A program made the translations under genes and the position numbers. 64,000 nt of DNA. It comes from Malaciobacter pacificus (GTDB lineage Bacteria; Campylobacterota; Campylobacteria; Campylobacterales; Arcobacteraceae). Within the stretch, counting starts at the first letter, position 1; each line of letters begins with the position of its first letter. The stretch covers positions 1,364,001 through 1,428,000 of the forward strand of contig NZ_CP035928.1 of NCBI RefSeq assembly GCF_004214795.1, read 5' to 3'. Shown here in pieces: positions 52,708 through 57,656 of the stretch. Under the pieces are notes generated by a model. The model was not told the origin of the DNA, did not search any database, and saw nothing but the letters and a program-made list of their open reading frames with translations.

Positions 52708-53184
52708 ATGTATAAAATTTTAGTACCAATATTTTTAACAATTTTTTTTACTTCTTGTAGTAGTAAAAATAGTGCATCAGAATATTTTAAGAACTCTACT
52801 ATAAATACCCAAATAATTCAATTTACAAAAAAAACTGATATAAAGATAGATAATCAACCAAAAGTTTTAATTTGGGCAACTTATTTAAACGGTTTAGAAA
52901 AATATAAAGATTTAAAAAATGAGACATTTTTAGTTACTACTTATTTTACAAATCAAGAAAGCAATGGTATTGAAACAAATGGATATGAATTATTTTTAAA
53001 TGATAAGAAAAGCCAAGCTTTACAAAAACTATCAGAAGATAGTATTTATAAAGAGTTGTTTATTAAAAATAAATGGGCTAGCAAGTATTTAGTTACATTT
53101 GATGAAATTATTAAAGAACAGTATGAGTTAAATCTTATAATTAAAAATAACACTTCTAAGGCGCAACTAAAGTTTGAAAAATAG
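52708..53184 (+). CDS. Lipoprotein of unknown function
   Basis: A lipoprotein signal (ILVPIFLTIFFTSC) and 140 exported residues with a mostly beta character (PKVLIWATYLNGLEKYKDLK, TYFTNQESNGIETNGYELF). No family is recognised. It is divergent from mobB, and its last 29 bases overlap the converging lytic transglycosylase gene. It appears to be a single gene. Confidence 0.65.
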   Translation: MYKILVPIFLTIFFTSCSSKNSASEYFKNSTINTQIIQFTKKTDIKIDNQPKVLIWATYLNGLEKYKDLKNETFLVTTYFTNQESNGIETNGYELFLNDKKSQALQKLSEDSIYKELFIKNKWASKYLVTFDEIIKEQYELNLIIKNNTSKAQLKFEK

Positions 53185-54817
53185 TTGATAGCCTTACTTT
53201 ATTTTTAGGGTTTAAATAGTTATTATAAACATAATAATTAGTTAATACTTTTTTCCCATACTCTTTAGTCTCTGGATATGAAATCATTTCCATACTTAAA
53301 AAAGGTTCATATTTTTTATCAATTCTTTTGAATAAACCTTGTTTAAATTGACTTTTAGTATATCCAGCTCCCCCATTATAAGCATATGCTATAAATAAAG
53401 GGTTGTTGTTGAATTGTTTCATTAATGTTTCTAAATGATAACTCCCATATTTGATATTAACTTCTGGATTAAATTGATCATAAATATTATAATTTTCATT
53501 TAATTTATTTGCAATAGTTTCTGATAAAAATGGCATTATTTGCATAACACCTTGTGCTGTTGAAAATGAGATTGATGAAGGAATAAATAAACTCTCTTGC
53601 TTGGCAATTGAATATAACAATACTTTCTTATATGTAGAATAATCTTTTACAATATCTTTAAATGGAGTTATAAAATAATGATTTCTATATTTATGAAATC
53701 TTGTTAATACAAAGGCTAAGTGAGGTTTAGTGTTTTCATTTGTAAAAATAGTTTCATATTTTTTTAATTTATTTTCATCTAAATTCTTTTTTGTATCATC
53801 TAAAACTTTCATCCATAAAAATTGATCATAAATGTCATATTTTGTAGGAGTATTTGGAATTTCAATATCATAATAAATATTCTCTAAAGGTACTTCAAGT
53901 AGTTCTTTTGCGTAAGCAGAATATAAATTAATATGGAAGCTTTTTGATAGCTCATGTAAAAAAGTTTTATTATCAGTTACTAGATATAGCCAAAAAAGAG
54001 CTTTGTCTTTGTCACTTCGTAAATAAGACTTTTTAAATGCATTCTCAAAAAAGTAATAAGCTTTTTCATCATTATTATGATTTACAGCATTAATTCCAAG
54101 TAAAAACAATACATTTGGCGTTAAATCTTTATTATTTTTTGTATTTAGTAAAGATTTCTGTAGATTTTGTAATCTATTTTTTTTGTATATTGTATATCTT
54201 ACTAGCATCTCAAACTGTTTTTGAGTTGCTAGTTTATTTATAAACTCTTCAGAATAATTATTATCAAAATTTTTATATCGATAAGAAGTCCCAAGTTTAA
54301 AGAAAAACTTGAAAAAATTGTCATATCCATAATTTAAAGATTCACTTCCAATATCTTTATTATATATGATATTTAAATCTTTTTTTAAAGTAGGGTAGTT
54401 TTCTATCTTTTCTATAAATTTTGCAAGTTTAGCTTTTGGAATTTGAGTTGCTTCTTTTAAACTTAGACCTAAAGCAATACATTTTTCATTATTCATTTTT
54501 AATAATTCATTTATACTTGCTTGATAACACTCTAAATTTGAAGCTTTGATTTTATTATACTTTTTATAGGCATCCTTTATATATCGAGTTTTCTTATGAG
54601 CCAAGTCATAAGCTTTTTTCGCTTCTTCTAATGAAATATCATTTTGATTTAAATATTGAATAATAAAGAAGTCTCTTGAGTAGCTTTTGGGTTTTTGTTC
54701 AAGCCACTCTAAAGTGACTTGAAAATTATCTTGTAAAATTTCACTTTTTATTTCAGTATTTGCTGAAGATAAAGTAAATATAACTGCACTAGAAAGTGCA
54801 ATAAGTGTTTTTTTCAT
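53156..54817 (-). CDS. Soluble-type lytic murein transglycosylase
   Basis: An exported protein (signal MKKTLIALSSAVIFTLSSA) with a long helical superhelix (about 30-385), then an SLT domain. The catalytic Glu is in LYSIAKQESLFIPSSISF, followed by STAQGVMQIMPFLSETIA, NPEVNIKYGSYHLETLM and AYNGGAGYTKS. It cuts glycan strands in peptidoglycan, forming anhydromuramyl ends, as in Slt70-like enzymes. The length of 553 is a little short of enteric Slt (about 645). The next gene, yggT, is 9 bp upstream of its start. Confidence 0.9.
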   Translation of the reverse strand: MKKTLIALSSAVIFTLSSANTEIKSEILQDNFQVTLEWLEQKPKSYSRDFFIIQYLNQNDISLEEAKKAYDLAHKKTRYIKDAYKKYNKIKASNLECYQASINELLKMNNEKCIALGLSLKEATQIPKAKLAKFIEKIENYPTLKKDLNIIYNKDIGSESLNYGYDNFFKFFFKLGTSYRYKNFDNNYSEEFINKLATQKQFEMLVRYTIYKKNRLQNLQKSLLNTKNNKDLTPNVLFLLGINAVNHNNDEKAYYFFENAFKKSYLRSDKDKALFWLYLVTDNKTFLHELSKSFHINLYSAYAKELLEVPLENIYYDIEIPNTPTKYDIYDQFLWMKVLDDTKKNLDENKLKKYETIFTNENTKPHLAFVLTRFHKYRNHYFITPFKDIVKDYSTYKKVLLYSIAKQESLFIPSSISFSTAQGVMQIMPFLSETIANKLNENYNIYDQFNPEVNIKYGSYHLETLMKQFNNNPLFIAYAYNGGAGYTKSQFKQGLFKRIDKKYEPFLSMEMISYPETKEYGKKVLTNYYVYNNYLNPKNKVRLSTIFQTLVAP

Positions 54818-54826
54818 AATTAATTG

Positions 54827-55099
54827 CTAGTAAAATAAGTTTTTTAAGAATGTTTCTAAAAATATTAATGCAAAAATTAAAATAATTGGTGCTAAATCCA
54901 TACCACCAAATGTTGTTGGGATATATCTTCTAACAAAAGCATAAGCAGGCTCTGTTAATCTATAAAGCATTTGCACTATTGGATTATAAGGATCAGGTCT
55001 AACCCAAGTTAAAATAGCTGATATTATAATCACCCATTTATATAAAAATATAATTCCCAATACAACTGTTAAAATTGAAGAGAGTAGTGCATCTATCAT
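54827..55099 (-). CDS. YggT-family membrane protein
   Basis: A 90-residue protein with two or three membrane helices ([37 protein letters not shown]) and the YggT signature [20 protein letters not shown] plus [11 protein letters not shown]. The family is linked to membrane organisation and osmotic or division phenotypes but has no settled function. Its start overlaps the end of the GltX-like gene by 4 bases (coupled translation). Confidence 0.88.
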
Positions 55100-56361
55100 T
55101 TTACAATTTCTCCTATATAATTTTTAATTAAAGAATAAACTTCATTAAGTCTTAAAGTATCTTCATTTCCTGTTAAAATATAAGCTAAAGGTTTTAAAAG
55201 TTTATCTTCTTGTAGCTTTGTTTTTTCACTTAAATATTTTTCTAAATCATTGTAATCATTAAAAAAAGGAGCATCTTTAAATGCCTCTTTTATTTTATTA
55301 TATTCATCTTCAAAACCATTTAAAGGAGTTTTCTCACTAAAAATTGTATCTATCTTATTTTTGATCTCTTTAATAGTAGAACACTCATTTAAATACAATT
55401 TTGCAAGTTTCCCAATATCACTATCAGCAAAACCTAAAATTTTAGATAATCTCATATCTTCAATTGTTTCTAAATGTTTTCTATTTATCTCTTTTAGCTT
55501 CTCAATATCAAAATCTACTGACTCTTTTGAAAGGTTTTCTATTTTAAACCATTCAATAGCTTCTTCTAGTGTAAAAATTTCTTTTGGTGTATTATTTGCA
55601 AGTAATACTAAATAGTTTGCAATAGCACTTGGTAAAAATCCATCATCAATTAACTCTTGAACTGTAAGATTAGTATTTAATGATGGTAAATGTATATAGT
55701 TTATCTCTTTGTCATATCCTAGTGAGTTTCTAATATGAATCTGTCTAGCAGTATTTAATAGATGCTCTTCATCTCTTAAAATAGTAGAGATATTCATTAT
55801 CATATCATCAGCAGCACATGAATAGTTATAAGTTGGTGTTTTATCATGAGTTAATATATGAAAAGCATCTACTTCATAAGGTTTATAAGAAATTTCACCA
55901 TTTAATGCGTCCGTAAACTTTATATCTTCTTTTGGTTTAGACATTCTTACAGTAAATGGAGCATTTGTATTTAATACTGTTTCATCAGATAATTTTTCAC
56001 AAAAATCATCATAACTAAATACTTTACCTTTATTTTCAGCTTTTTCTTTTAATTCTTGAAGTTTTTCATCACTACAAAAACATGAGAAAGCCTTTTTCTG
56101 TCCCATAAGTTGCATGGCAAGTTTTTGATGATATTTTAGTGATTCACTTTGATAAACTACACCTTTATACTCAATTGAAAAAAGATTTATTAGTTCTAAA
56201 ATCTTTTTATCCATACCTTCAATAACTTTTTCTTTTTTATAATCATCTATTCTAATTACTAAATCTTCATTTAATTGTTTTGATAATATGTAGTTATAAA
56301 TAGCAACTCTTAGTTTATTTATACTTAAATCTTCTGTTTGACTTGGTGCAAATCTTAACAA
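55096..56361 (-). CDS. Glutamyl-tRNA synthetase homologue with lost HIGH and KMSKS motifs
   Basis: The 421-residue sequence aligns in layout with Glt[21 protein letters not shown] at the start, [35 protein letters not shown] and a C-terminal helical domain. Where GltX has P-T-G-x-L-H-I-G it has Q-T-E-D-L-S-I-N. The K-x-S-K-R loop after HLP is deleted ([20 protein letters not shown]). RIEDTD is RIDDYK. These losses should abolish ATP activation, so it is probably a pseudo-synthetase. The frame is intact and starts at TTG with AAGGAAA upstream. A functional gltX must exist elsewhere. It is coupled to yggT. Confidence 0.8.
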
Positions 56362-56363
56362 AT

Positions 56364-57656
56364 CTATTTCCTTACTATTGCAAATGTTAAATTTTTTATT
56401 TCATTATGTGATTTAATATAAGAGTTTAAATCTTCTAATGATAAATTTTGGATTTTTTCTAATTCTTTTGCTGAATAATCTAAACCTAAACCTTTATAAT
56501 AAAGCATATATGCTCTATGCAGTCTTTGAGAAAGAGTTTCATTTCTTAATGGTTCACTTCCACTTAAAAAGTTTTTAGCTGCTATTAATTCTTCTTGTGT
56601 AACACCATTTTCTACAAAATCATTTACTAAATCATTTACTATTTTTTGAGCTTCTTGTGCATTTTCATTTTTTGTTTGTAAGTATCCATTGAAATAAGAG
56701 TGAGATTTATTTATAGTTATATAACCATATGCACTATAAGCTAAACCTCTTTTTACTCTAATTTCTTCCATTAGTCTTGAACCAAAACCAGAACCACCTA
56801 AAATAAATGAGGCTACCTTTGCTTTATAATTGTTTTCATCTTTAGGATCTACATTAAAAGAACTACCAAAGTATATGTATGCTTGTTGAGTATCTTTAAT
56901 TAATGTTTTTTCTTCTTTCTTAGAGTTGATATCTATTAGTTTTAATTTTGCTTTTTCACCAGTTTTTAAAGTTTTTAATATAGGTGTTACTAATTCTTCA
57001 AACTCTTCAAATGTATAATCTCCACCTGCAACTAAAATTAGATTGTTTAAAACTAAAGTTTTATCAAGAAACTTTTTAACATCATCTATTTTTATTTTTG
57101 AAATTGATTCAATAGTTCCAGAACTAGAGTTTTCTAAAGGAGTGTCTTTAAATAACATTGATTTTAGAAGGTTTTTTGAAACATAGTCGTAATCATTCTC
57201 TTTTCTTTTTAATGCACCTGTTTGGATTGTTTTAATTTTCTCTAATGTATCTTTAGAATAATTTGGTGATTTTAATAAGTCATTTAAAAGTTTTATAGCT
57301 TTATTAGATACATCTTTTAAATTTGATAACTCTATTACAAATGTTTCAAAACCATTTGACGCGCTTAAAGATATAGCATTTTCTTCAAGTTTTTGTGCAA
57401 ACTTAACTGAACCTAACTCTTTTGTTCCTTCGTTTAAAACTTTTGAAGATATATTTGCTAAACCACTTTTTTTGCCATCTTGGATATAGCCAGAGTTTTG
57501 AAAAACCATTTGTAAATTTAATATTGGTAAACTTTTTTGTTCCTCAAAAATAACTGGAACTTCAATATTATCTATTTTTATGTACTTGATTTGTGCACCC
57601 ATTAAACTTCCTTGTATAATTGCTAATATTAATAAAATTTGTAATTTTATTTTCAT
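56364..57656 (-). CDS. M16-family (insulinase-like) exported protein without zinc motif
   Basis: A signal peptide ([17 protein letters not shown]) and two M16-type halves: [20 protein letters not shown] and, in the second, [20 protein letters not shown] followed by LAYSAYGYI. Active M16 enzymes have H-x-x-E-H after G-L-A; here the sequence is [16 protein letters not shown], so the zinc site is absent. The C-terminal R-x-x-L-A-Y-S segment typical of substrate-binding subunits is kept. It is likely a non-catalytic periplasmic partner or chaperone-like protein. It lies between mqnC and the GltX-like gene with short spacing. Confidence 0.8.

Follow-up and report, generated by a model that had tools for sequence, protein, structure and literature searches.

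The locus described here raises a simple question: why does a gene for a glutamyl-tRNA synthetase (GluRS) stay open when its catalytic motifs are gone? The window, i.e. the whole stretch of DNA that we analysed, is 64,000 nucleotides long and comes from Malaciobacter pacificus (NZ_CP035928.1, positions 1,364,001 to 1,428,000). The encoded protein matched Pfam tRNA-synt_1c (E 4e-50) and, over residues 1-413, NCBIfam TIGR00464 gltX_bact (294.6 bits, cut-off 289.95); the preliminary description, which had called the 421-codon open frame a full-length GluRS homologue, was right in this and in the coordinates and strand. An AlphaFold2 model (pLDDT 92.8, whole chain) gave a complete GluRS fold, which matches 2cfo with Z 35.6 across 420 residues. 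By similarity the protein is thus a bacterial GluRS (TIGR00464), but it has neither the HIGH motif nor the KMSKS loop. Comparison with relatives showed that their motif stretch RFAPSPTGDMHIGNLR is replaced in the window gene, which has SINK in place of HIGN, and that GKKMSKRDD falls within 12 residues that are absent from it. The changes of HIGH to QTEDLSIN and of RIEDTD to RIDDYK and the deletion of the KMSKS loop had been noticed earlier, and all three were borne out, as were the ribosome binding site (AAGGA, 7 nt upstream of the TTG) and the coupling to yggT by ATGA (Table 1). A sequencing error or frameshift was rejected as the cause of the motif loss because many relatives carry losses at the same sites, with deletions of differing length in the same loop.

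Table 1. Features of the gltX2 locus, in window positions
Feature	Position	Strand	Details
Lytic transglycosylase (slt), conserved neighbour	53156..54817	(-)	
yggT	54827..55099	(-)	4-nt overlap of its start with the gltX2 stop (ATGA); linked to gltX2 throughout the order
gltX2 (GluRS2 orthologue by sequence) without catalytic motifs	55096..56361	(-)	421 aa, TTG start
C-terminal anticodon-binding domain	55099..55437	(-)	equivalents of K386, K396, K398, R405 gone (E374, Q384, D386, A393)
Site of 12-residue KMSKS-loop deletion	55669..55680	(-)	residues about 228-231
Degenerate IRGEDH	55762..55779	(-)	residues 195-200, LRDEEH
Zinc-site motif CxCx20Yx3C, kept	55999..56082	(-)	C94, C96, Y117, C121
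Degenerate RIEDTD	56236..56253	(-)	residues 37-42, RIDDYK
Degenerate HIGH region	56317..56340	(-)	residues 8-15, QTEDLSIN; PTGDMHIG in relatives
Shine-Dalgarno-like AAGGA	56369..56373	(-)	inside end of upstream gene, 7 nt upstream of gltX2 TTG
M16-family peptidase homologue, upstream	56364..57656	(-)	neighbour conserved within Arcobacteraceae

The 2.66-Mb single-contig genome holds three tRNA-synt_1c genes: the window gene, a canonical GltX1 (HIGG, KLSKRD) at 85.6 kb and, at 1985 kb, a GlnRS of 754 aa in which HIGH and MSKRK are intact. The window protein is 50-67% identical to GltX2 proteins of its family and 32% identical to its own GltX1, so a degenerate GltX1 copy was rejected. Its nearest relatives are GltX2 and not GltX1, and they share the yggT/slt locus; named relatives found by sequence belong mostly to Arcobacter and Aliarcobacter, and nearly all other genomes of the family have a full-length homologue. 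HIGN and KMSKRD are kept in GltX2 of A. caeni, A. vandammei, A. vitoriensis, Ca. Thiovulum and one Campylobacterales MAG. A search of plasmids matched distant ordinary gltX only. Glu-Q-RS (YadB) is also a GluRS paralogue that bears a CxC..Yx3C zinc motif, but it is catalytic and has no anticodon domain, whereas the window protein has the C-terminal domain and reached 117 bits against the YadB cut-off of 276.7. Judged by these sequence relationships, the gene is a GluRS2 (GltX2) orthologue. In Helicobacter pylori, GluRS2 glutamylates tRNAGln only (PMC9976931; PMC3927822). This enzyme is of the orthologous lineage and has the identical domain order, and intact Campylobacterales GltX2 best match the window protein; unlike it, the window gene lacks HIGH, KMSKS, GED and the anticodon-site residues and shares its genome with GlnRS.

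We then compared GltX2 across the order, in which GlnRS was found in 138 of 399 genomes (62 of 104 in the window's family). Six residues (H13, G15, G197, K236, S238 and K239, A. caeni numbering) were scored in 202 Campylobacterales genes. Where GlnRS is absent, 81 of 82 GltX2 have all six, and the one that does not (G017) comes from a MAG of 74% completeness. Where it is present, at least two residues are lost in 107 of 120 GltX2, and at least four in 94 of these; the KMSKS-loop deletion in such dead copies varies from 0 to 12 residues. In a careful tree of 110 GltX2 sequences, from which catalytic and anticodon-site columns had been removed, the dead/intact label changes 22 times, 19 of them forced by well-supported branches, this being a gene tree and not a species tree, with many of the genomes drafts or MAGs. 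A single ancestral loss was rejected, as at least 19 changes are forced and none of the bootstrap trees had only one. Across 19 independent pairs with and without GlnRS on the careful tree, GltX2 death accompanied GlnRS in 13.3 and ran counter to it in 0.3 (median p 0.00024), and the 202 sequences gave a similar outcome. The catalytic death of GltX2 is almost certainly tied to GlnRS, and its chemistry has apparently been lost about 19 or more separate times, almost only beside GlnRS.

Several of the exceptions among GlnRS-containing genomes look early or special. In three of them (G399, G316 and G441) change in GltX2 has already begun. One genome has a GlnRS pseudogene (15 or more stops) beside a fully intact GltX2 (locus L215, G023:C171:7000-11000). 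Dasgupta and Basu (2014, PMC3927822) noted GluRS2 and GlnRS together in six of ten epsilonproteobacteria and proposed that GlnRS may lack function in them. Our data suggest the reverse: HIGH and MSKRK of GlnRS were retained in every full-length frame read and it is GltX2 that loses its motifs, which points to GlnRS as the active enzyme. We found no report of a degenerate GluRS2 in Campylobacterota in the literature searched, a set outside which most subscription journals lie.

The dead copies could be decaying pseudogenes caught early, with no present function. This predicts relaxed selection, and pooled NG86 dN/dS is indeed roughly doubled, from 0.147 in 16 intact GltX2 pairs to 0.256 (range 0.11-0.36) in 28 disjoint dead pairs. 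Neither the pooled value nor that of the pair including the window gene (0.351) is near 1, as it would be for a pseudogene, and the relaxation is concentrated: five-fold in the catalytic motifs (0.079 to 0.412) and 1.3 to 1.9-fold elsewhere, where dead copies have values of 0.15-0.35. The window frame is open, as are those of all 108 dead GltX2 analysed, in which we saw no internal stop or frameshift, whereas about 28 nonsense changes would be expected per neutral pair at the observed dS. The zinc cysteines C94, C96 and C121 were kept in 108 of 108. Genuine decay looks different: in G027, both GlnRS and GltX2 are riddled with stops. Early decay would also fit with the absence of gltX2 from about 20 of 112 GlnRS-containing genomes outside the window's family and with the truly decayed copy of G027. 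We consider it highly improbable for the 108 copies with their open frames.

The dN/dS values, the open frames and the invariant zinc ligands show that purifying selection maintains the window GltX2 as a non-catalytic protein that folds and probably binds zinc. The preliminary description had spoken of a retained pseudo-synthetase, and this reading holds well, since its catalytic motifs have been lost, purifying selection acts on the frame across relatives and the same state recurs in six families. The likely cause, a GlnRS encoded elsewhere in the genome, went unremarked there. Dead GltX2 is probably retained for a function of the protein itself. The retained role is dispensable, because one dead GltX2 (G019; L216, G019:C60:2300-4000) has lost the whole zinc/acceptor-binding subdomain by in-frame deletion, with yggT still directly 3', and because of the GlnRS-containing genomes without gltX2 mentioned above. 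In a MAG of 84% completeness, a single contig (L214, G027:C290:4800-10200) carries M16, gltX2, yggT and glnS genes that all appear decayed, either as a true pseudogene island or through assembly errors.

What has decayed in these proteins extends beyond catalysis. The residues considered here were placed by equivalence to the contacts of Thermus thermophilus GluRS, which we presume to hold. At the ATP site, H13 is kept in 27% and K239 in 8% of dead copies, and T41 on the CCA side in 36%. Among the basic residues of the anticodon domain, K386 is kept in 51%, K396 in 50%, K398 in 23% (E in 59%) and R405 in 63%, and elsewhere R116 in 24% and R171 in 20%; the window protein has S116 and T171 at the last two (the others are in Table 1). 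Mean net charge falls from -3.5 in intact to -15.2 in dead GltX2 (-16 in the window protein); on independent pairs, the test of this acidic shift is weaker (median p 0.03). We infer that the window protein does not aminoacylate. With its ATP-site, CCA-end and anticodon contacts eroded, it has probably ceased to handle tRNAGln.

Dead GltX2 might still bind tRNA, as a chaperone or decoy for tRNAGln or tRNAGlu, and most copies do keep a complete GluRS fold, anticodon domain included. The lost lysines and arginines and the fall in charge argue the other way, as do three copies (G138, G242 and G360) with no anticodon domain, and we regard tRNA binding as very unlikely; strict retention of tRNAGln binding is disfavoured by the same lost residues and charge drop. 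Binding of tRNA-Glu, suggested in the preliminary description, is unlikely because conserved RNA-contact Lys/Arg are lost and net charge has fallen by about 12, with CCA-side residues decaying as well; moreover, the lineage is that of GluRS2, specific for tRNAGln in H. pylori (PMC9976931). For the heme/tRNA-dependent chemistry also suggested there, we found no support in this lineage, with its decayed RNA contacts and lowered charge. A further alternative is moonlighting that involves neither GatCAB nor GlnRS, e.g. ligand sensing or regulation through what remains of the glutamate pocket. R3 is kept in 108 of 108 dead copies, E39 as E or D in 98% and S7 in 82% (95% in Arcobacteraceae), in contrast to H13 and K239; other residues of the pocket vary more (Y178 64%, R196 73%) and dead GltX2 has no regulatory domain. 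We think such a role unlikely.

The genomic context offers an explanation in cis. The gltX2 frame might be kept since its translation is needed for that of yggT through the ATGA overlap, the protein being merely foldable and harmless. The two genes adjoin in all dead loci scanned, from six families, and in intact lineages too, with slt mostly linked. The overlap is present in 97 of 108 dead loci and in most intact ones, it is the functional surfaces that decay and the core that is preserved, and the G242 copy retains the yggT junction despite having dropped its anticodon domain. A passenger of this kind could nevertheless shrink to a short coupler, and most dead copies are 390-433 aa long. Their deletions concentrate in the KMSKS loop, many to most conserved charged or polar positions outside RNA-contact sites are kept at 85-100%, and in some other Campylobacterales yggT does not adjoin gltX2. 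This is the main rival to retention for a protein-level role. We think it fairly unlikely, given that most copies have stayed full-length and kept their conserved polar residues. Upstream of gltX2, no HxxEH zinc motif is apparent in the M16-peptidase homologue, a lack shared with inactive M16 partner subunits, so the window operon may hold two successive catalytically dead enzymes.

Placement relative to glnS differs between families. The dead gltX2 of family f20 directly follows glnS, in tandem in 27 of 30 cases and with an 8-nt overlap in most loci read (L229, L230 and others), apparently as a translationally coupled pair. The two genes are divergent in 13 of 20 cases in family f16, and in Arcobacteraceae they mostly lie far apart.

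The explanation that we favour, and hold to be somewhat more likely than not, is redundancy made by GlnRS followed by retention as a non-catalytic partner. Ancestrally, GltX2 would have supplied Glu-tRNAGln to the amidotransferase GatCAB. With a YqeY-tailed GlnRS in the genome, its charging step became redundant and its catalysis was lost, as the comparison across the order shows; the folded, probably zinc-binding protein has been kept under purifying selection. Its most likely role would be that of a candidate partner that docks, via the zinc domain, on GatCAB or on the GatB-like tail that GlnRS of the window's group carries. GatB occurs in 102 of the 104 family genomes and none of 41 genomes yielded an AsnRS, so the making of Asn-tRNAAsn probably still depends on GatCAB. 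In the Thermotoga maritima transamidosome, the zinc domain of GluRS contacts GatCAB, a contact argued to be its core role; the zinc-bound GluRS has the same motif as the window protein, CxCx20Yx3C (PMC4381286). Strict retention of the zinc site in a GltX2 without substrate contacts fits such a docking role, and the GatB-like tail as an alternative dock would explain the f20 glnS-gltX2 operon.

As to the partner itself, GatCAB or GlnRS is a tentative and somewhat doubtful candidate. The coupling of dead gltX2 behind glnS in one family and their divergent arrangement in another count for it. Against it count the G019 protein without its zinc domain, the GlnRS-containing genomes that lack gltX2, the usual distance of glnS in Arcobacteraceae, the shrunken copies in one family with three lacking the anticodon domain, and the near-invariant yggT linkage, which gives a cis explanation of the open frame. 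Put more generally, GluRS2 may have turned non-catalytic about 19 or more times in GlnRS lineages and so exposed a hidden second function that needs neither ATP nor tRNA contacts (e.g. as a stoichiometric subunit, either of GatCAB or of the YqeY-tailed GlnRS); we give this wider reading an even chance.

Among known systems, HisZ has a class II fold and is not known to have arisen by losses repeated in parallel lineages. It is like GltX2 in being a synthetase paralogue (of HisRS) that has lost charging and is kept for another job, in histidine biosynthesis; its role is established, in contrast to that of the window protein (PMC9437257). A second GluRS without charging activity has also been reported in T. 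maritima. PMC3927822, which cites that report, describes this inactive GluRS2 as a product of gene duplication, next to a GluRS1 able to charge both tRNAs, and no tie to a gain of GlnRS is made there.

The Campylobacterales thus present a replicated natural experiment, in which one housekeeping enzyme repeatedly loses its chemistry, almost only beside a replacement, and keeps its fold. The intact retention of a GltX2 without chemistry points to a second job, and a second function of GluRS2 is thereby opened to direct test. For many Campylobacterota genes the annotation "glutamate--tRNA ligase" is wrong, and even the window protein passes the cut-off of the family model. Some Campylobacterales (families f14, f17 and f21 and genus g56 of family f13) have one GluRS only, with neither GlnRS nor a clear GltX2, and this single enzyme is presumably non-discriminating.
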